A DNA stretch of 36,182 bases, taken from positions 1 through 36,182 of the IMG/VR virus record IMGVR_UViG_3300013132_000121; one strand, 5' to 3'. This document shows, piece after piece, positions 1,729-15,201 of this stretch (position 1 is the stretch's first letter; each line of letters starts with the position of its first letter). A program made the position numbers and the translations under genes. This stretch comes from a virus. The notes beneath the pieces were generated by a model. The model did not search any database and was not told the DNA's origin. It saw nothing but the letters and a program-made list of their open reading frames with translations.

Positions 1729-1774
1729 GGCTTGGCGTGTTTAAATGGGCATCCCTCTTTTTCAAGGATGCACG

Positions 1775-3703
1775 ATGTCACAAAATAAAATTCTCGGTCA
1801 AGTGGCTTTTGCCACACAATACGCAAAAATCAAGGCAGATGGTAGCAGAGAGAGCTACGCCGACGCTATGGGCAGAGTCAGGGATATGCACGCCGAAAAA
1901 TTCCCACTGCTCGCAAAAAGAATCCATCAGGTTTTCAATGACTTTGTCATGCCTCAAATTGTATTCCCATCTCAAAGATCGACTCAGTTTGGCGGTGATG
2001 CCATCAAGAGAAACAATATGAGACTGTACAACTGTACGGCAAGCTACTGCGATCGAGTCCGCTTTTTTGCTGAGGGCTTTTGGCTCTTGATGAGTGGATG
2101 TGGCGTGGGCTTTTCTGTGCAAAAGCATCACATTGACCGCTTGCCAAGGCTGATCACAGCAGAGCAAAGAGACGCACGAATCAATAAAATTCATGTGGTG
2201 GCAGATAGTATCGAGGGATGGGCTGATGCCGTCCTAGCCCTAGTGTCTAGCTATATGCCCATGAATGGGGATGAGGCAAAATATTGTATCAGCTTTCATT
2301 ACGATCAGGTACGCCCAGAGGGATCGCCGATCTCTATCGGTGGGGTCGCCCCCGGTCCCCAAGTGCTAAAAACTGCCATCGAGCGAGTCAAAGGCATACT
2401 AGATCAGGCGGTCAATGATGGTCAATACAAAATCCGACCTATACAAGCTTTTGATATTTTCATGCACATATCTCACGCAGCTCTCCTATCGTCTCGCAGG
2501 GCGGCAACCATTGCCCTTTTTTCTCCTGATGATGATGAGATGATGAACGCCAAGACGGGCGATTGGTGGATGACTCAGCCTCAGAGGGCGTATGCAAATA
2601 TCTCTGCTCAAATCGATACATCATCGCTCACAGAGAAAAAAAATGTATTTGCTCAGATAGTCGATACCGCCCGACAGTATGGAGAGCCGGGCTTTTTCTT
2701 TGCCCATTCAACAGAGTATGCGACAAATCCATGCGGTGAGATTGGTCTATATCCCCGCATCCTAGAGGCAGACGGCACATGGTCAAGTGGATGGGCAGTG
2801 TGCAATCTAAATGAAATCGTGATCCCTAACATCCAAGACAATCATCATTTCATACAGGCTTGCAGTGCTGCAGCATTTTTAGGCACTCTGCAGGCATCTT
2901 ATACAGAGACGGGCTATCTCGGCGATGTGTCTAGACGCATCATAGAGCGTGATGCACTGATAGGCGTATCTATGACGGGTATCATGCACAATCCCAAGCT
3001 GATAGAAAATAAAAATCTTCTGCAGATGGGCGGGCTCATGATCAGGAATGAGAACGAAATCACCGCCAAGGCGATCGGCATCAATCAAGCCCTGCGTTGT
3101 ACGACCATCAAGCCAAGTGGCAACAGCTCCACAGTGGCGGGCTGTTGTGCGGGCATCCATCCATATCATGCCCGATACTACATCCGACGCATGAGGATAA
3201 ATAAAATCAATCCTATATGGGCAGAAATTTTAAATAAATTGCCTCAAGTGTGCGATGATAGCGATCCACAGGTTGGGATTGTGGCTTTTGCCTGTGAAGC
3301 TCCTGAGAAGGCAATTTTGAGAAAAGACATTGACGCTATTGAATTTTTAAACAAAGTAAAGTTTTTTCAAGATTATTGGGTGATGGCGGGCAATAGAGAG
3401 ATCGAATCGCAAAAAGGCTTGACTCACAATGTCTCAAATACCTGCACAGTCAAGGCTGATGAATGGGACGCAATCAAAGATCGCATTTGGGATCTCAGGA
3501 AGTCAGTCAGGGGCATCAGCCTTTTAAGTGACTACGGCGATACTGTATATAAAAATGCCCCATACGAGACCAGCGACATCAATGATGAATACTATAAAAC
3601 TCTGCTAGATGCAGATTGGTCGCTAGTCGATTTTAGCTTAGGCGGATATGTCGAGAGCCCACAGGCTGATCCTGCCTGTGCAGGTGGCGTCTGCCTGCTA
3701 TAG
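1775..3703 (+). CDS. nrdJ: Adenosylcobalamin-dependent (class II) ribonucleotide reductase
   Basis: This is a 642-residue enzyme that reduces ribonucleotides to deoxyribonucleotides. ATG 1775 has AAGGA at 1764-1768; an in-frame ATG at 1745 lacks a well-placed site. Visible active-site features are Cys87 (NCTAS), the finger-loop NPCGE with the expected thiyl Cys320, Cys343 (AVCNLNE), the phosphate-binding-type stretch KPSGNSSTVAG and a C-terminal pair Cys635/Cys640 (ACAGGVC). This is the layout of monomeric class II enzymes such as Lactobacillus RTPR and phage relatives; no separate small subunit or activase is present. The Cys320-Cys343 spacing (23) is longer than the 11 of RTPR. It is the last gene of the late operon and converges on recT, overlapping it by six bases. 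Confidence 0.9.
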   Translation: MSQNKILGQVAFATQYAKIKADGSRESYADAMGRVRDMHAEKFPLLAKRIHQVFNDFVMPQIVFPSQRSTQFGGDAIKRNNMRLYNCTASYCDRVRFFAEGFWLLMSGCGVGFSVQKHHIDRLPRLITAEQRDARINKIHVVADSIEGWADAVLALVSSYMPMNGDEAKYCISFHYDQVRPEGSPISIGGVAPGPQVLKTAIERVKGILDQAVNDGQYKIRPIQAFDIFMHISHAALLSSRRAATIALFSPDDDEMMNAKTGDWWMTQPQRAYANISAQIDTSSLTEKKNVFAQIVDTARQYGEPGFFFAHSTEYATNPCGEIGLYPRILEADGTWSSGWAVCNLNEIVIPNIQDNHHFIQACSAAAFLGTLQASYTETGYLGDVSRRIIERDALIGVSMTGIMHNPKLIENKNLLQMGGLMIRNENEITAKAIGINQALRCTTIKPSGNSSTVAGCCAGIHPYHARYYIRRMRINKINPIWAEILNKLPQVCDDSDPQVGIVAFACEAPEKAILRKDIDAIEFLNKVKFFQDYWVMAGNREIESQKGLTHNVSNTCTVKADEWDAIKDRIWDLRKSVRGISLLSDYGDTVYKNAPYETSDINDEYYKTLLDADWSLVDFSLGGYVESPQADPACAGGVCLL

Positions 3704-4673: not shown

Positions 4674-4719
4674 TTGTCATTGACAAGTAAAATATAAAAT
4701 ACTTTTTTGAATAAGTCAA
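4674..4719 (-). promoter_or_regulatory. Sigma-70-type promoter of recT with a palindrome at the start point
   Basis: On the minus strand TTGACT (4719-4714) and TATATT (4696-4691) are separated by exactly 17 bases, which is a strong sigma-70 arrangement. The expected start is near 4684, about 48 bases before the recT ATG. Just at the start point lies a perfect 13-bp palindrome, TTGTCATTGACAA (4674-4686), well placed as an operator. The region 4637-4748 is otherwise very AT-rich and holds no gene. Confidence 0.65.
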
Positions 4720-4748
4720 ATATTTTTTTTAAATTTCAAATATATTTT

Positions 4749-6161
4749 TTATAAATCATTGATTGAGAATGTCTCGCCGATAAATCTATGCTCCGTCTTG
4801 CCATCCTGTCCATGTCGATTTTTAACAACAATCAGCTCGATCTTATCTCGATCTGCGACCTCATTGTATTTGATATCACGATAAAGCATAGTAATCACAT
4901 CTGCGTCTTGCTCAAGACTGCCCGACTCCCTGAGATCGCTTGCCATAGGTCTTTTAACTGCCCGCCCCTCCACATCTCGATTTAACTGAGCTAGTGCGAT
5001 GACTGCACAATCGAATTGCTTTGCTAGATTCTTTAGACCTCTGCTGATCTCAGCGATCTCTTGCTCTCTAAAGTTTGCCTTGCTTGGCTCTCTCACGAGC
5101 TGCAGGTAGTCGACGACAATCAGACCAAGAGGCACGCCCGAGCTCGCCCGATGGTGTTCACAGGCTGAGTAAATCTTTTCTAAAGTCATAGGCGTATCAA
5201 TGAACTGCAGATGATCTGCGTTTGCTATATCATCTAAAGCCTTGTCAAATCGATCGAATTCCCTTTGATCCCACTCATGAGCGAGCTTGTTTAGATTGCT
5301 ATTTGATACCATGCTGATACTGCAGGCGAGACGCTGGATCAGTTGTGTATTAGGCATCTCTAAAGAGAAAAATAAATTTTTTGTACCAACGCAATCACGA
5401 GAGGATAAAAACTTTAAGGCGACTGCAGTCTTGCCCATGCCCGGGCGTCCTGCGTATATATAAAAACATCCCTTTTTAAATCCTCCTCCCAAGAGCTCGT
5501 CATGCTCTGCTAAAAATGTCCTGATGACGGGCGGGCGTACAAATAGGCTATCTCTCACAGTCTTTGCGAGCGATCCATTGTTATCAGGCTTATCGGGAAG
5601 CATTGCTTTAAAATTGCTGATCAGCTTGTTAATTGCCCCTGTGGCTGACTCATCATCCAAGCCCAAGTCTAGCATGAGTCTTGATTTTTGACTTTGGCAG
5701 ATGCCTATCCTAAATGTGATCACATTGCGAATGTGTGCTAGTGCTGCGTTCTCGACTATGGGCGTATTCGTCCTAGGCTCTTGTATGTCCAGTTGCATCA
5801 TGTATTCTAGCATCTCATCGGGCTCATAAGACTCTTTCATGTCGCAATACTGCTTAAAAGGTCCCTTTAAGGCGGGATAGATGACATTGCGATATTCTTT
5901 ATCTAGCTCAAGGAGAGTGGTTAGCCCGCCCCGTCTCAATATGCGAACGACTGCGACATAGATCAATCTATTGGGCTCGAAATGCAGCAGCTCTGCGTTG
6001 CCCTGTAGTACTCTCATAACTGTCTGTTGGATATGTGGCAGATGATAGCAGAGCAAATCGCCCATAAGCTTGAGCTCTTCTTTGATCATGATTACATATT
6101 TTCTTTGATTTGATGCTGTCTTGAGATGATCGTTAAATTCTTTTTGAAAATTGATATACAT
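4749..6161 (-). CDS. dnaB: DnaB-like replicative helicase
   Basis: This is a 470-residue RecA-fold helicase. The N-terminal half (1-200) is helical, as in the DnaB N-domain and linker. The C-terminal motor shows Walker A GRPGMGKTA (238-246), EMP at 268-270, Walker B LIVVDYLQ (347-354), ALAQLNR (389-395), the RPMASDLRESGSLEQDAD segment (404-421) and KNRHG (447-451), which includes the usual arginine-finger region. It should unwind the phage fork as a hexamer. It lies in a three-gene operon after an HTH regulator and a small membrane protein. ATG 6161 has only a weak upstream GAG. No primase domain is visible, so host primase is probably recruited. Confidence 0.93.
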   Translation of the reverse strand: MYINFQKEFNDHLKTASNQRKYVIMIKEELKLMGDLLCYHLPHIQQTVMRVLQGNAELLHFEPNRLIYVAVVRILRRGGLTTLLELDKEYRNVIYPALKGPFKQYCDMKESYEPDEMLEYMMQLDIQEPRTNTPIVENAALAHIRNVITFRIGICQSQKSRLMLDLGLDDESATGAINKLISNFKAMLPDKPDNNGSLAKTVRDSLFVRPPVIRTFLAEHDELLGGGFKKGCFYIYAGRPGMGKTAVALKFLSSRDCVGTKNLFFSLEMPNTQLIQRLACSISMVSNSNLNKLAHEWDQREFDRFDKALDDIANADHLQFIDTPMTLEKIYSACEHHRASSGVPLGLIVVDYLQLVREPSKANFREQEIAEISRGLKNLAKQFDCAVIALAQLNRDVEGRAVKRPMASDLRESGSLEQDADVITMLYRDIKYNEVADRDKIELIVVKNRHGQDGKTEHRFIGETFSINDL

Positions 6162-6166
6162 TATGA

Positions 6167-6394
6167 TTACTCAGTGAAAAAATATAAAATTCCTAGTGCG
6201 TTGACATAAACATAGGTGATGAAGACTGCCAAGTAAAAGCAGACCTTTAGGGCATAGATTACAGGGCTGATGAGCTGTGAGACGGGCTGATTTAGATCGA
6301 CAGCAGGTGGGGCATAAAACACTAAAGGCTCTTGCTCTTCTACTTGTGGGCGAACGATGGGATATAGACCGACATTGAAATCTTGTTGACTCAT
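6167..6394 (-). CDS. Small single-span membrane protein, hypothetical
   Basis: This gene encodes 75 residues and its start overlaps the stop of the preceding HTH gene (ATGA at 6391-6394). The first 40 residues are soluble and Pro/Gln-rich. Residues from about 43 to 71 form one long hydrophobic stretch (SPVIYALKVCFYLAVFITYV and onward) that ends almost at the C terminus, so it looks like a tail-anchored or single-span membrane protein. It stands between a regulator and the replicative helicase. A link between replication and the membrane, or an early host-takeover function, is possible but only inferred. No family is recognised. Confidence 0.65.
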   Translation of the reverse strand: MSQQDFNVGLYPIVRPQVEEQEPLVFYAPPAVDLNQPVSQLISPVIYALKVCFYLAVFITYVYVNALGILYFFTE

Positions 6395-6618
6395 TTTTTA
6401 TCTCCTAAAAATTGCATACAGGTTGGATGTGGATACATGAAAAACTGATGAGACACGCCTAGCTTGGCTTGCATCTCGATTGCGATAGAGTATTTGCAGA
6501 CTGCATGATCTTTGAGTCTTGCAGATAGGACTTGAACGCTGACGCCAAGTACTTGAGCCATTTCTGTTAGGCTTTGACTTTTGGCTGTTCTGAGAGCCAT
6601 GGATTTTTTATTGCTCAT
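6391..6618 (-). CDS. Small helix-turn-helix regulator (Cro/antirepressor-type size)
   Basis: ATG 6618 has an excellent AAGGAGGT upstream and gives 75 residues; an ATG further upstream (6693) would add a hydrophobic leader read through the promoter and is rejected. Residues about 17-45 form a helix-turn-helix pattern (LTEMAQVLGVSVQVLSARLK). The product is basic at its N terminus and fits a Cro-like or replication-control DNA-binding protein. It is transcribed divergently from the replication initiator, and its likely targets are the sites in the shared promoter region at 6642-6689. It starts the operon that includes the helicase. Direct DNA binding is inferred from the motif. Confidence 0.7.
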   Translation of the reverse strand: MSNKKSMALRTAKSQSLTEMAQVLGVSVQVLSARLKDHAVCKYSIAIEMQAKLGVSHQFFMYPHPTCMQFLGDKK

Positions 6619-6641
6619 GATACCTCCTTTAAGGTTCTTTT

Positions 6642-6689
6642 TATTTATCAAAAATAATATTGAAAAGTCAAATAAAATTTTGATATATT
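6642..6689. promoter_or_regulatory. Divergent promoter region between HTH gene and replication initiator, with an iteron-like site
   Basis: On the plus strand TTGAAA (6660-6665) and TATATT (6684-6689) are 18 bases apart and would drive the initiator gene. On the minus strand TTGACT (6671-6666) with a weak TAAATA (6647-6642), 18 bases apart, would drive the HTH-helicase operon. The two -35 boxes abut. TTTATCAAAAATAATATT at 6644-6661 matches the 18-bp iteron inside the initiator gene at 14 of 18 positions, and a half-site TTTTGATAT lies at 6678-6686. This suits autoregulation by the initiator or control by the HTH protein. Confidence 0.55.
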
Positions 6690-6723: not shown

Positions 6724-7920
6724 ATGAAGCTATTCAAAGAAGCGGGATTCTATGGCCTATTCAATATCAATCGATCTGCACTAAAGAGCAATGCCAAGGC
6801 AGTACTCGTTAGGATGATTGAGATTTATGAGACTGGAGACACTATAGATCGATCATTCATCAGCTCTTACTCATATATAGGTGAGCTGATACACATGGAC
6901 AGGCAGGCGGTGGCTAGGGCTACAAAAGAGCTGATCGATGAGAGGCTGATCAGCCTAGAGATCAATCAGTCTGCAGGTAATTTAAGTCGATTCACTTTCA
7001 CTCAAGAGCTGCTGTCTCGCTTTGATTTAGGGACGGGCAGATATACAAAAAACGCCAAGAAAATATCCCCCCCTCATATCAAAAATGATATGACCCCTCA
7101 TATCAAAAATGATATGACCCCTCATATCAAAAATGATATGACCCCTCATATCAAAAATGATCACAATATAGAAGACTATATAGATGACTATTTAGAGGAT
7201 AGCTTATTTAATATTTCAATAATGCGTGCGTGCGTGAGTGAGAATCTTTTCATAAAGACAGCGGGCGGGCTAGAATGGAATAAAAACTTTTTGCCCTGTG
7301 AGGATGGATTCGAGAAGCAGGCATCTCATGGAGAGCACTATAAGCGGGATGAAAAAGGCAATCGCATTGTGTCAGATAATGGGATTAAAAATAGAAAGCT
7401 TAGAATGTGTCAGCCCGTATGCGATACATACTTCACGCTAGACGCCTCTATTTTGAGCTATAATCAAAGATCAAGGGCTTTGCTATATCAGCATATAGGT
7501 AGCATGAAAAACAACGCTAAAAATGCCCATTTTTTAATCATCAAAGAAAACGCTCTAAAATCGAGTCTAGGATATCTCATTCATAAGGCTCTGCATTTTG
7601 CAGGTAGCTCACTAGTCATGATCGACTCATGGGAGAATATAGTAAATCAAGAGCTACGCTTTTGGCAGGATTCAAGGAGTAAGCGATCATCAGACTCAAA
7701 ATGTTTTGCTGACAGATCAAAGCCCTATGACATAACGATAATTGTTGATTTTCTGCCCAAGGCGAGAGATGTACAAAGTCAAGTCTTGCGTGATCTGGTG
7801 ACACATGACAAGCCTATCATATTTATCACTACTGCTATCGATGAAAACGCATTTGAATTTAGGGGCGATAACTTCCTAAAGGCATTTCAAGACAAGACTA
7901 CTCTAATCGAATTAAGCTGA
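6724..7920 (+). CDS. Replication initiator: winged-helix domain plus degenerate AAA+-like C-terminal domain, carries iterons
   Basis: ATG 6724 has AAGGA seven bases upstream and gives 398 residues; an ATG at 6688 is not preceded by a site. Residues about 18-95 look like a winged helix-turn-helix (SYIGELIHMDRQAVARATKE, then DERLISLEI) as in lambda O-type and other phage initiators. Residues 117-146 repeat PHIKNDMT, which is simply the coding of iterons at 7072-7161. The C-terminal part has FLIIKENALKSSLG where a P-loop would be, ITIIVDFLPK like Walker B (338-346) and KPIIFITT like sensor 1, suggesting a helicase-loader-type AAA+ fold that has lost its P-loop. That last point is inference. The gene converges on the dCMP deaminase gene and overlaps it by 23 bases. 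Confidence 0.75.
   Translation: MKLFKEAGFYGLFNINRSALKSNAKAVLVRMIEIYETGDTIDRSFISSYSYIGELIHMDRQAVARATKELIDERLISLEINQSAGNLSRFTFTQELLSRFDLGTGRYTKNAKKISPPHIKNDMTPHIKNDMTPHIKNDMTPHIKNDHNIEDYIDDYLEDSLFNISIMRACVSENLFIKTAGGLEWNKNFLPCEDGFEKQASHGEHYKRDEKGNRIVSDNGIKNRKLRMCQPVCDTYFTLDASILSYNQRSRALLYQHIGSMKNNAKNAHFLIIKENALKSSLGYLIHKALHFAGSSLVMIDSWENIVNQELRFWQDSRSKRSSDSKCFADRSKPYDITIIVDFLPKARDVQSQVLRDLVTHDKPIIFITTAIDENAFEFRGDNFLKAFQDKTTLIELS
7072..7161 (+). repeat. Iterons: 24-bp tandem repeat, three full copies and a partial fourth
   Basis: The repeat period is exactly 24 bp, with units at 7072-7095, 7096-7119 and 7120-7143 and an 18-base partial unit at 7144-7161. Each unit holds the inverted repeat CATATCA-AAAA-TGATATG (first at 7075-7092); the fourth copy loses the end of the right arm. 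Copies are identical where complete. The period is a multiple of three, so the gene stays open. Its place inside the initiator gene is that of the lambda iterons inside gene O. Confidence 0.95.
7072..7232. other. ori: Putative phage replication origin (iterons plus AT-rich stretch)
   Basis: The iterons are followed at once by an AT-rich stretch (about 7161-7232) with runs such as AATATAGAAG, CTATATAGATG and TTATTTAATATTTC. The order iterons then AT-rich unwinding region, inside an initiator gene and beside a divergently transcribed helicase operon, copies the lambda origin plan. No DnaA-box or primer promoter was identified. Confidence 0.6.
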
Positions 7921-10217: not shown

Positions 10218-10724
10218 ATGGGCATAGACGACAGGATCAAAAAGCGAAAGCAGGTTGAAGCTGTCGATGAGACGGCAGAGATCGCCCCGCCTGTAAAGCA
10301 AGACGCCCCCAAGAAGACAGTCGCCGACTCGAGAAAAGAAAAGGTTCTCTTCTTCATCTCCGAGGGCATGAGCCTGCGACAAGCTTCAATCATGGCGGGC
10401 GTCGATCCCGCTACGATATACAAATACAAGACGCACGATCCTAGCTTTATCATAGAGGTCGAGCAGGCTAGACTAGCATATCGCATGAGGCTAGTCGACA
10501 AGGTGAAGCTCGCTAGTGAGACGGATTGGCGTGCTGCCAAGTTTCTGCTCGAAACTCAATTCGCAAGTGAATTCGGACCAACGCAACAGATCGAAATCAC
10601 TACAGACAAACCTAAATCAATCGTGATCGATATGGTCAATCAGATCAAGGGGATAGAACATGATAAGCCTAGTGAACAGGCAGACGCACAACCAAGCGAT
10701 CCCATGGACGATGATCAAGGCTGA
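10218..10724 (+). CDS. terS: Terminase small subunit
   Basis: ATG 10218 has AAGGGAG upstream and gives 168 residues. An open frame extends upstream to 10053 but overlaps the previous gene in another frame and is rejected. Residues about 38-80 hold a helix-turn-helix (SLRQASIMAGVDPATIYKYK), followed by helices (EQARLAYRMRLVDKVKLA) and DWRAAKFLLETQFASEFG. That final motif is typical of phage small terminases and related packaging-initiation proteins. The last 20 residues are acidic and polar. The large subunit follows after two intervening genes, so pairing is by position and motif. The first sigma-like gene starts inside its 3' end. Confidence 0.75.
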   Translation: MGIDDRIKKRKQVEAVDETAEIAPPVKQDAPKKTVADSRKEKVLFFISEGMSLRQASIMAGVDPATIYKYKTHDPSFIIEVEQARLAYRMRLVDKVKLASETDWRAAKFLLETQFASEFGPTQQIEITTDKPKSIVIDMVNQIKGIEHDKPSEQADAQPSDPMDDDQG

Positions 10725-11283
10725 GGATGGCTATATCTTTGATCTCAATGATGCAGAAAACCAAGAGACAGTCAAAAGCATTGTGAAAAACTCATTTAAG
10801 GGGCGTGGTGGCTACGATGAGGATCATCTAGCAGGCTTCTATATCGAGCTAGAAAAATGCCTTAAAAAATCGTATGGCTTTAAAGATCGAGGTCGCATTT
10901 TAGGATACATTCGAGCCGTCGCCCGCTTTCACTATTTGACAGATTATCTCAGCCCTAAGAGACGCATAAAATATGAGGTGGCAAACGCTATCATCATAAA
11001 CGCCGATTCATACAGCGACTACGATTTAGACGCCTACTACATGGATCATGCGTCAATCGATACGACAAGCCCCGAGAGCTCAATCTTGATCGCCCTAGAT
11101 ATGCAGGGTTTTCTATCTAGGCTAGATGATGATGATATGCCACTGATAGAGCTGATGATACAGGGACATGGATATGCAGAGACCGCCAAGGAGCTTGGCG
11201 TCAACGCAAATTCTTTATTTACAGGCACGCATCGCCTCAGAAAAAGACTACAAGCAAGCTGGGCTAAAAGATACCAAGCCTAA
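10660..11283 (+). CDS. ECF-sigma-factor-like protein, copy 1 of a tandem pair
   Basis: This 207-residue protein starts inside terS; the start is confirmed by alignment with the next gene (MISLVN versus MINLMN). Residues about 52-108 resemble sigma region 2, with RILGYIRAVARFHYLTDYL followed by basic SPKRRIKYE. The C-terminal part (about 155-200) resembles region 4, with a helix-turn-helix in LIELMIQGHGYAETAKELG and HRLRKRLQ. The overall size matches ECF sigma factors. It could redirect host RNA polymerase to late promoters, or be a terminase accessory protein that reuses the HTH. Its N-terminal 35 residues are nearly the same as those of copy 2. Assignment is by pattern only. Confidence 0.55.
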   Translation: MISLVNRQTHNQAIPWTMIKAEDGYIFDLNDAENQETVKSIVKNSFKGRGGYDEDHLAGFYIELEKCLKKSYGFKDRGRILGYIRAVARFHYLTDYLSPKRRIKYEVANAIIINADSYSDYDLDAYYMDHASIDTTSPESSILIALDMQGFLSRLDDDDMPLIELMIQGHGYAETAKELGVNANSLFTGTHRLRKRLQASWAKRYQA

Positions 11284-11319: not shown

Positions 11320-11991
11320 ATGATAAACCTAATGAACAAAAAGAAAAAGATCGAGCCTAGCCCATGGACATTGATCAAGGCAGAGGATGGATTCGTCTTT
11401 GATCTCAATGATGCAGAAAATCAGGAGACCATAGAGAAGATGCTAAACAAATCTTTTAAGGGAAGATCGGGATATAGCGATGATCATCTTGTGGGATACT
11501 ACATCCTGCTCGAGAGATACCTAAAGCAAGCCAAGGCTTTTGAGAGTCGTGAACGCATCCTAGGATATCTAAAAGCAGTCGCAAGGATTCACTATCTATC
11601 AGGCTTTCTTAATTCAAGGCGACGATCAAAATATGAGATCTCAAGTGCTGATATCATGGGCGTAATGCAAAAGGGAACGCCCATCGCTCCACGCAGAGAC
11701 TACCAGAGTCAAGCGGGCTATACCGATCAACAGCTCGATTCATTCTATTCAAAAAATGCAGATGTTAAGTCGATGACCATAGAAGAGTCAATAATCCTTG
11801 GCATCGACCTAGAGAGGCTATTAGACGCCGTCCATGAAAAAGATAAACATATGCTAGATCTCATCATCACTGGTCATCGTCATGTCGACATCGCACAGGA
11901 CATGGGACTAAAAGAGAATACCGCCTCTACCATGGTCAAGAGACTTAAAGGCAAGCTGTCCACTGCATGGAGAGAGCAATATGAAGCTTAA
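11320..11991 (+). CDS. ECF-sigma-factor-like protein, copy 2 of a tandem pair
   Basis: This 223-residue paralogue lies 36 bases after copy 1; AAGGACG precedes its ATG. Shared features include PWTLIKAEDGFVFDLNDAEN at 15-34, a region-2-like helix set with RILGYLKAVARIHYLSGFL and basic NSRRRSK (79-104), and a region-4-like helix-turn-helix MLDLIITGHRHVDIAQDMG (178-196) followed by VKRLKGKL. It has about 16 extra residues in the linker between the two parts. The 3' end overlaps the terL start by 11 bases. Two diverged copies suggest separate promoter targets or timing; direct function is unproven. Confidence 0.6.
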   Translation: MINLMNKKKKIEPSPWTLIKAEDGFVFDLNDAENQETIEKMLNKSFKGRSGYSDDHLVGYYILLERYLKQAKAFESRERILGYLKAVARIHYLSGFLNSRRRSKYEISSADIMGVMQKGTPIAPRRDYQSQAGYTDQQLDSFYSKNADVKSMTIEESIILGIDLERLLDAVHEKDKHMLDLIITGHRHVDIAQDMGLKENTASTMVKRLKGKLSTAWREQYEA

Positions 11992-13345: not shown

Positions 13346-13513
13346 ATGAAAGCAGATGATCGCTTGGCCATGCTCGAACAGTACATCGATCTAGGGCTAT
13401 CACTATCAAAAGACGACATTAAGAGGCTTTATCGCCATAGCGGGCAGATAAGGACTAAAAAATATCCCACGCTAAAAGATGGACTAAAGAGGCACTATGC
13501 TAGACCTAGATAA
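13346..13513 (+). CDS. 55-residue basic protein, hypothetical
   Basis: This gene begins directly after the terL stop with GAGGAGG at 13333-13339, one of the best ribosome binding sites in the window, and overlaps the methyltransferase start by 17 bases. The product is helical and basic (ends KDGLKRHYARPR); residues about 8-30 (AMLEQYIDLGLSLSKDDIKR) could be two short helices. It has no cysteines or membrane segment. I do not recognise a family. The coupling suggests a packaging accessory or a leader for translation of the methyltransferase. Confidence 0.6.
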   Translation: MKADDRLAMLEQYIDLGLSLSKDDIKRLYRHSGQIRTKKYPTLKDGLKRHYARPR

Positions 13514-14252
13514 GATTCACTTGGGCGACTGCTTGGAGCTGATGCCATCGATACCAGATAAAAGCATTGATATGATTCTTTGCGATTTGCCTTATGGGAC
13601 AACCGATTGTAAATGGGATTCGATTATTGACATGGGCAAATTATGGCCTCAATATGAAAGAGTAATTAAGGACAATGGGGCTATTGTGTTGACAGCTCAA
13701 GGTGTTTTTTGTGCTGAACTAATTTCATATAAAAAAACATGGTTTAATCATGACTATGTGTGGATAAAAAACCAGCATTCAAACTTTGCCTTGGTAGGCA
13801 TCCAACCATTTAGAATTTTTGAAAATGTGCTTGTGTTTAAAAATCCACAAAAGCCAAGAGTTACTTTTAATTTTGATGATAGAATTAAGGGCATACAAAA
13901 AAAATATAAAAATGATTTAAAAAGAAAACAGTATGGTGAAGAATCACGATCTAGACAACATAAAGAATATGTATCTAAAGAATATGAAAACTATCCTAAA
14001 AATGTACTCTATTTTGATTGCGAACGAGGCCAGCACCCAACACAAAAGCCAGTCCCTCTTTTTGAATACCTGATCAAAACCTACACGAATGAAAATGAAG
14101 TAGTGCTGGATAATTGCAGTGGAAGCGGTACGACAGCCATCGCCTGTCTAAACTCAAACAGGCGTTTTATCTGCATTGAGCGGGATGAAGCCTATTACAA
14201 AAAATCACTCGATCGCATAGCCGATCACGAACCACTTTTGAGGTTGATATGA
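13497..14252 (+). CDS. DNA methyltransferase (N6-adenine/N4-cytosine, beta-type order)
   Basis: This 251-residue enzyme has the catalytic motif IV CDLPYG (29-34) near the N terminus and the SAM-binding motif DNCSGSGTTAI (205-215) near the C terminus. HPTQKPVPLFEYLI lies just before the latter. This catalytic-first order is that of beta-class amino methyltransferases. A short lysine-rich region between them (about 118-172) would be the target-recognition part; the recognised sequence cannot be read. No restriction partner is seen, so it is probably an anti-restriction or regulatory modification. The gene is much richer in AAA and AAT codons than its neighbours, which suggests later acquisition. 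Confidence 0.88.
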   Translation: MLDLDKIHLGDCLELMPSIPDKSIDMILCDLPYGTTDCKWDSIIDMGKLWPQYERVIKDNGAIVLTAQGVFCAELISYKKTWFNHDYVWIKNQHSNFALVGIQPFRIFENVLVFKNPQKPRVTFNFDDRIKGIQKKYKNDLKRKQYGEESRSRQHKEYVSKEYENYPKNVLYFDCERGQHPTQKPVPLFEYLIKTYTNENEVVLDNCSGSGTTAIACLNSNRRFICIERDEAYYKKSLDRIADHEPLLRLI

Positions 14253-14377
14253 CACTACATAGCATTGAGCTTTTAAAGCAGATCATTTCTGCACTGCTAC
14301 CAGATGACGAGCCTATCCGATCAAAGCTTTTAGCGGTCATCGCTGAGATCGAGGCAGACCTAAAAACAGAGGACTAG
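14249..14377 (+). CDS. 42-residue acidic helical protein, hypothetical
   Basis: ATG 14249 overlaps the methyltransferase stop (ATGA) and has GAGG about five bases upstream. The product (ends IEAEADL-like acidic helix, IAEIEADLKTED) is short, acidic and probably all helical. It converges on the PP-loop gene, whose stop overlaps by four bases. The open frame, start context and coupling support translation, but its size makes this uncertain and no function is suggested. Confidence 0.45.
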   Translation: MTLHSIELLKQIISALLPDDEPIRSKLLAVIAEIEADLKTED

Positions 14378-15201
14378 TGCGACGAGCTGTCGCACAATCC
14401 CCAGCTGAGACAGCCTTGAAACGATTCATCATTTTCAAATAGATCTAACTGATCTCCATAAGCCCACTCTATGACCTGATCGATTTTACCTCTATTAAAA
14501 AAAGAGTGAAGTGCGTTATTGTCAGGATTCTTTTTTAATATGGTTTCATGCACTTCATCCTCTAGTCGTCTGATGAGATCAAACCGACTAGGCAGAATGC
14601 GATGTGCGTTTTTGACCTCATCCTTTCTAGAATAGATGCAAGGGAAGCAACCGACACGACTAAAGCCCTTTAGATAAAGAGGGTTAGGCTTTATCCCATG
14701 CCTATGATGAATGTCAATGACTTGCTCTGTACTCCACTCTATGAGCGGGCGATATATATAGGATTCGTCTTTATCTTCCCATTCGCCTAAAGTCGATCTA
14801 GCCTTGGATTCTGCCCGCCTGATCCCGACTGCATTTATGGGCTTTTTTTTAAAGTCTAATCGAATTTCATTGAGATAGTTTTGAATGGGCACAACCTTTA
14901 AATTTATCGTGCATACTCTGTTTTGTTGGGCAGGAAAGAAATTATTTTTGATAATATATTCCTCTAGCCCCCCCCCCGTAGTTTTAAAGTATTTTTCATT
15001 TTTTATGCGAATAATTTTTATTTTAAGAATCGCTTCTAAATACTCTAGATAATCGTAGGTCAAGGGATGCTCCCAGCCCGTATCACAAAACACAGGAGTG
15101 AAAATAATGTTATTCTCAATAAGATAAAGCATCATTGCTGTTGAGTCTTTACCGCCTGACACTGATGCGATGACAGGGCACTCATTTAATAGGTCTTGCA
15201 T
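14374..15201 (-). CDS. PAPS-reductase-family PP-loop protein (DndC/phage type)
   Basis: This 275-residue protein has the PP-loop SGGKDST (15-21), which binds ATP or adenylyl substrates. FCDTGWEHP (38-46), CTINLK with Cys97 (97-102), VGIRRAESKAR (125-135) and RVGCFPCIYSR with Cys185/Cys188 (182-192) follow. This set is shared by phage PAPS-reductase-like proteins (Pfam PF01507) and by DndC of the phosphorothioation system. True PAPS reductases act in sulfate assimilation; in phages the role is unsettled and may be nucleic-acid modification. No DndDE or cysteine desulfurase partners are seen. ATG 15201 has AGGA upstream; the promoter is at 15227-15255. Base composition is AT-rich, like the neighbouring methyltransferase. 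Confidence 0.75.
   Translation of the reverse strand: MQDLLNECPVIASVSGGKDSTAMMLYLIENNIIFTPVFCDTGWEHPLTYDYLEYLEAILKIKIIRIKNEKYFKTTGGGLEEYIIKNNFFPAQQNRVCTINLKVVPIQNYLNEIRLDFKKKPINAVGIRRAESKARSTLGEWEDKDESYIYRPLIEWSTEQVIDIHHRHGIKPNPLYLKGFSRVGCFPCIYSRKDEVKNAHRILPSRFDLIRRLEDEVHETILKKNPDNNALHSFFNRGKIDQVIEWAYGDQLDLFENDESFQGCLSWGLCDSSSH
14377..14395. terminator. Hairpin at converging gene ends, possible terminator
   Basis: GTGCGAC-GAGCT-GTCGCAC is a perfect 7-bp inverted repeat with a 5-base loop. It sits where the plus-strand packaging operon and the minus-strand PP-loop gene meet, overlapping the last codons of the latter. There is no T-run directly after it on the plus strand; on the minus strand TTTTT comes about 12 bases later. 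It may terminate or protect mRNA ends. Confidence 0.45.

Follow-up and report, generated by a model that had tools for sequence, protein, structure and literature searches.

A probable lambda-type replication origin inside the initiator gene of an uncultivated freshwater phage

Introduction

The lambda plan of a replication origin was worked out in a few model phages. The lambda origin lies in gene O, the gene of its initiator, and the initiator O and the loader P come from separate genes. Each lambda iteron is bound by O as a dimer, with an AT-rich region lying to the right (PMC6022878, PMC7466680). In SPP1, direct repeats and an AT-rich unwinding element make up the origin oriL inside gene 38; gp38 is the origin binder, gp39 the loader and gp40 the helicase, a phage helicase of the DnaB family (PMC6316719).

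Here we analyze an IMG/VR virus record of 36,182 bp (the whole stretch is called ‘the window’) that encodes terminase, portal and tail genes along with a replication module. On the minus strand the module has genes for a RecT-like annealing protein, a DnaB helicase and a Cro-like regulator; the initiator gene follows on the plus strand, and after it come, in this order, dCMP deaminase, transglycosylase, ThyX and SSB. The features around the initiator gene are:

6724..7920, plus strand: initiator gene, 398 aa, ATG start (ORF, structure model, fold matches, PHROG)
4749..6161, minus strand: phage DnaB-type replicative helicase (Pfam DnaB_C, 1.6e-67; tblastn)
6391..6621, minus strand: regulator with a Cro/CI-like HTH, divergent to the initiator gene (classed by PHROG as transcriptional regulator; match to Pfam HTH_3 under the cut-off); its synteny is maintained in relatives
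6660..6689, plus strand: promoter-like TTGAAA-18-TATATT upstream of the initiator gene (consensus scan, in which such elements as a class are not above chance)

The iteron array and the AT-rich tract

Two features inside the initiator gene are central to the argument:

7070..7161, plus strand: iteron array, 24-bp unit, 3.83 copies (repeat, dyad and motif counts)
7163..7222, no strand assigned: AT-rich tract, 78% A+T, probable DNA unwinding element (duplex stability, position in relatives)

A sequence-only reading of this DNA had described three perfect 24-bp repeats and a partial fourth, and this count holds: copies of the unit are 100% identical and the array is in frame within the ORF, with TRF run on the locus in its own genome in agreement. 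The unit is TCATATCA-AAAA-TGATATGA-CCCC. The same reading had seen an inverted repeat with 7-bp arms around AAAA; the dyad is there, with arms of 8 bp rather than 7. The array contains four TCATATCA and three complete TGATATGA half-sites (in the fourth copy the left half-site is complete and the right one is reduced to TGAT), and it can be described as a chain of half-sites changing orientation every 12 bp. Because AAAA and CCCC linkers alternate, perfect 8-4-8 dyads overlap; six of them are found in the array and none elsewhere in the window. The 18-bp core CATATCAAAAATGATATG occurs exactly at 7075, 7099 and 7123, and with three mismatches at 7147; allowing up to three mismatches, four sites are observed in the window against 0.08 expected by chance.

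The AT-rich stretch that had been noted directly after the repeats was located precisely by nearest-neighbour energies: 7163–7222 is the weakest 60-bp duplex of the initiator gene, and it begins 2 bp past the array end. In the whole record it ranks third (z 3.6; 0.17% of positions are equally weak), the two weaker duplexes, 4693–4752 and 6628–6687, being mainly intergenic. In the lambda control, the weakest 60 bp of gene O begins 4 bp after iteron 4.

The resemblance to lambda extends to layout. In the window as in lambda, the initiator gene contains dyad iterons whose centre is A-rich, with the weakest duplex just 3′ of the array; the first codon of the array is 116 in the window and 117 in gene O. 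Lambda iterons, ATCCCTC-AAAA-CGAGGGA, share the A4-centred dyad. The window differs from lambda in its half-sites, in a regular 24-bp period and in having no detectable full-length homology to O. Thus, of the earlier statement that repeats and protein are not lambda-like, the part on the arms is right, whereas the layout and the start codon are like those of lambda. With SPP1 oriL the window shares repeats and an AT-rich element within the gene of the origin binder as well as a phage DnaB-family helicase; in SPP1, in contrast, the loader has a gene to itself (39) and there is another origin, oriR, whereas no second array was found in the window.

GC skew around the array tracks gene orientation; it is therefore confounded and gives no independent support for an origin. 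Hairpins of the single strand were also considered as a functional element. Three of 8 bp (z −8.5) form on the plus strand of the array, as they would in any dyad array.

Two further repeats were observed. The region 4693–4752, which melts more easily than any other 60 bp in the record, is situated at the recT-dnaB junction and carries a 20-bp A/T repeat in roughly three loose copies (seen in L002/L003). In locus L034 a 21-bp repeat, TTTACATTGTCAATAAAAA, is present both at the recT-dnaB junction and at the initiator promoter; these repeats are probably regulator operators.

Relatives of the window

Neither a tblastn search of 50,697 phage records with the initiator nor a DNA search with the initiator region produced a match, and a search of genome contigs with the initiator or the terminase found no relative. 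For the initiator itself, only three relatives were found, all of them near-identical and in IMG/VR. The array sequence is identical in these three contigs; in one of them, L003, identity over the initiator gene is ∼97%, and the array together with the start of the AT-rich tract differs at 1 of 128 positions. A search with the terminase, on the other hand, retrieved 64 loci of one freshwater phage group with the order of the replication module kept.

Of the syntenic loci retrieved, 21 have a complete initiator gene, and every one of these genes contains a tandem array; its period varied from 15 to 48 bp and its start from codon 116 to codon 156. The initiators fall into six families, the window included, with unrelated iterons and no sequence common to the arrays of different families; a profile search of viral contigs with the initiator alignment added no further family.

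Family 1: window
Family 2: L034, L045/L047 (one protein family, two arrays)
Family 3: L019/L023/L048/L060/L064
Family 4: L015/L016/L030/L031/L062
Family 5: L024/L029/L041/L042
Family 6: L012/L013/L068/L071 (different initiator protein)

Inverted half-sites around an A4 centre were found in several families, as in TATGGACA-AAAA-TGTCCATA of L030 and ATTAGGGGA-AAAA-TCCCCTAAT of L019; such a dyad was not seen in the arrays of L024 and L012. Measured from the array end, the start of the weakest 60-bp duplex of the gene falls within −9 to +11 bp in L012, L019/L023, L024 and L034/L045/L047. Together with the window, five of the six initiator families have it at the array end, as does lambda O. In the remaining family it starts at −13 in L030 and lies away from the array in L015 and L031. 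The chance of such a five-of-six placement is ∼3e-8 under a uniform model, which ignores a tendency of linker composition; we read this value as ‘not chance’.

One could propose that the array is a cluster of operators, serving the Cro-like repressor or autoregulation of the initiator, with the origin located elsewhere. Dyad sites would fit a repressor dimer too, and a partly matching site, TATCAAAAATAATAT, at 6646–6660 immediately precedes the −35-like hexamer in the promoter of the initiator gene. Over the full 20-bp dyad, however, this site matches at 14 of 20 positions, no better than background, and was rejected as an operator; initiator promoters of the other families have no such iteron-like site. 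Moreover, dyads within the gene, 350 bp downstream of its start, would make poor operators, and the constant presence of the AT-rich tract 3′ of the array would be left unexplained. We consider the operator reading highly unlikely.

The four members of family 6 are otherwise close to the window (terminase; ThyX 94%, SSB 92%); in these phages the replication module is exchanged wholesale. Their initiator has 358 aa and 15-bp repeats, and their DnaB is diverged.

A more local difference was seen within family 2. The initiators of L034 and L045 share 96% identity in their C-terminal 280 residues and 70% in their N-terminal 116, and their arrays differ. In the DNA, divergence sets in ∼240 bp ahead of the gene and covers promoter, N-domain, array and AT-rich tract; it ends sharply near L034:4040, beyond which identity is mostly 95–100%. 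This pattern, in a single informative pair, is suggestive of an exchange of an origin-specificity cassette, of which it is the trace one would expect.

Some relatives carry a second tandem array, with the 18-bp unit TCAAGGCTGATGAAGCTG, downstream of the initiator gene; its copy number is variable and reaches 7.8. Its positions are:

L064:4430-4568
L023:4790-4874
L058:265-367

DNA repeat or repeated peptide

Since the array is translated, it could be argued that the repeat acts as a flexible or interaction linker of the protein, (PHIKNDMT)n, spread by slippage and having no role as DNA. Array copies do encode an identical peptide, the linker is predicted to be disordered, and slippage does alter copy number. 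Whole 24-bp units are gained or lost among near-identical phages: L019 has 2.5 copies and L023 3.5, L045 has 5 and L047 4. Yet sister genes encode unrelated peptides at the place of the array. In one family (L015/L030/L031/L062) the repeat TATGGACAAAA continues in a second frame within one gene, with PMDKN read in one frame and LWTKM in the other; therefore it is the DNA that is conserved and not the peptide. Three copies with all codons alike would arise with a chance of ∼1e-5 if recent duplication is left aside, and a peptide linker needs no palindromic 8-4-8-4 architecture. We find the peptide reading so improbable as to be almost negligible. The comparison of homologous genes supports the view, already put forward from the sequence, that PHIKNDMT probably lacks any function by itself; it behaves as a passenger.

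The initiator protein

Two domains are predicted at the ends of the protein:

6724..7023, plus strand: winged helix-turn-helix domain, residues 1–100 (predicted structure, VIA-align match to CRP)
7390..7917, plus strand: C-terminal AAA+-like domain, about residues 223–398, with a degenerate P-loop KENALKSS (fold matches)

Two structure models were made, with mean pLDDT of 52 (window protein) and 57; built from 11 sequences only, they are of modest confidence. In the model of the window protein, helices and strands occupy residues 10–100 and 225–398; the linker is of low confidence over 101–246 and shows no structure at about 101–224. The N-terminal domain aligns with the winged helix of CRP (VIA-align Z 9.8, 1.2 A over 66 residues). 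In most members the N-terminal halves match PHROGs of O-like or initiation proteins; ‘replication initiation O-like’ phrog_678 is matched by 6 of 11 members, at 7.6e-7 in L034 and marginally, at 0.0012, in the window. The proposal that the N terminus looks like a winged helix-turn-helix thus finds backing in both the model and the PHROG matches, and the predicted domain is the probable iteron-binding domain.

The score of the window protein against TIGR01610 (phage_O_Nterm), 12.8 bits with E 0.12, is far below the curated cut-off of 45.5 bits, and an hhalign profile comparison with lambda O gave no match; for these reasons the initiator, although it would work like O, cannot be filed as an O protein. 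A phmmer search of PDB sequences with the window protein returned nothing informative.

By its predicted fold, the C-terminal half seems to belong with the AAA+ domains of DnaC, IstB and DnaA. Top matches were IstB, DnaA, DnaC and DnaI for two different members, the window protein (Z 11–12.5) and L024 (Z 12–13.6), while Pfam and PHROGs contained no family for the C-terminus of the window protein. Walker A (GxxGxGK[ST]) is absent in the window and degenerate in all other members but L024, which has an intact P-loop, GSAGSGKT, and matches PHROGs of DnaC-like loaders at 2.8e-6 and 1.2e-5. The window protein would accordingly have the fold of a DnaC-type loader without its nucleotide site, and ATP-driven loading may not occur because of the degenerate P-loop.

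The members of the DnaC/DnaI/IstB/DnaA group share the predicted fold; the window protein differs from them in being fused to a winged-helix initiator domain, and in its P-loop, degenerate also in most relatives. It resembles an initiator with a helicase-recruiting domain joined to it, encoded beside a phage DnaB (4749–6161), the probable client of the C-terminal domain. In lambda the two roles are divided between O and P; the window protein seems to combine them, having an AAA+-like domain in the initiator polypeptide, and DnaB is phage-encoded. The literature searched describes no initiator–loader fusion of such kind, an absence that is not proof; the modelled fusion would be the new element with respect to lambda and SPP1.

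We rate recruitment of the helicase by the C-terminal domain as rather likely. With the origin placed correctly, the domain could instead be a degenerate AAA+ module for oligomerization or strand opening, as in DnaA, the helicase being recruited otherwise; this affects only the last step of the mechanism, helicase recruitment. DnaA and Hda are matched about as well as DnaC, Bac_DnaA of Pfam is a weak match for L034/L045, and all members except L024 have lost Walker A. L024, however, matches loader PHROGs, and no separate loader gene is seen beside the phage DnaB in the window, where small unannotated genes could hold one. We regard this alternative as a serious contender, though less likely than not.

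Probable origin and proposed mechanism of initiation

The initiator gene has tandem dyad iterons and, directly 3′, an easily melted tract, as in a lambda-type origin. An in-gene theta-type origin of a tailed phage, built on the lambda plan, is in our judgement very probable from sequence comparison, because (i) the perfect 8-4-8-4 dyad array is unique in the window; (ii) the weakest duplex of the gene starts right after it; (iii) arrays of different sequence recur at similar codons in relatives; (iv) L034 and L045 differ in a block including both the N-domain and the array; (v) phages that are near-identical differ in array copy number by whole units; (vi) most members have O-like PHROG matches and the DnaB gene is next door. 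The sequence-only reading had proposed a lambda-like origin inside the initiator gene; it is still the best one, given the arrays in 21 of 21 relatives and the adjacent weak duplex in five of six families.

Initiation may proceed as follows. Initiator dimers would use their N-terminal winged helix to bind the dyad iterons, a step strongly supported by comparison of sequences. The nucleoprotein complex on the array would then strain and open the AT-rich 7163–7222, as its position and duplex stability suggest. The C-terminal AAA+-like domain may recruit the phage DnaB and place the helicase on the opened strands, to which predicted fold and gene context point. The repeated peptide of the linker would be a mere translation of the DNA sites.

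One could go further and see here a one-protein initiation system, made of an iteron-binding winged helix, origin DNA serving as linker codons and a (mostly nucleotide-free) AAA+ domain recruiting the helicase; promoter, DNA-binding domain, iterons and unwinding element would form a specificity cassette exchangeable between co-occurring phages, with the helicase-loading end kept. For this wider picture we see the chances as evenly balanced.

In this uncultivated freshwater group, one spot of the initiator gene holds six or more independent iteron alphabets, a natural experiment on co-evolution of initiator and origin specificity. Should the C-terminal domain indeed recruit DnaB, this domain would be a minimal loader joined to the origin binder, and P-loops ranging from intact to degenerate would test the need for ATP in phage helicase loading.

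Other features of the record

Tandem paralogous genes, 10660–11283 and 11320–11991, with 40% identity, are situated directly before the terminase; the C-terminus of each is weakly similar to sigma-70 region 4. Between terminase and portal, a gene for a PAPS-reductase-domain protein (14374–15201, minus strand) adjoins that of an N6/N4 DNA methylase (13497–14252, plus strand); the pair may be involved in modifying DNA or in evading defence. A B12-type ribonucleotide reductase-like gene (1745–3703, plus strand) is present in this 36-kb phage, with dCMP deaminase and ThyX close by.
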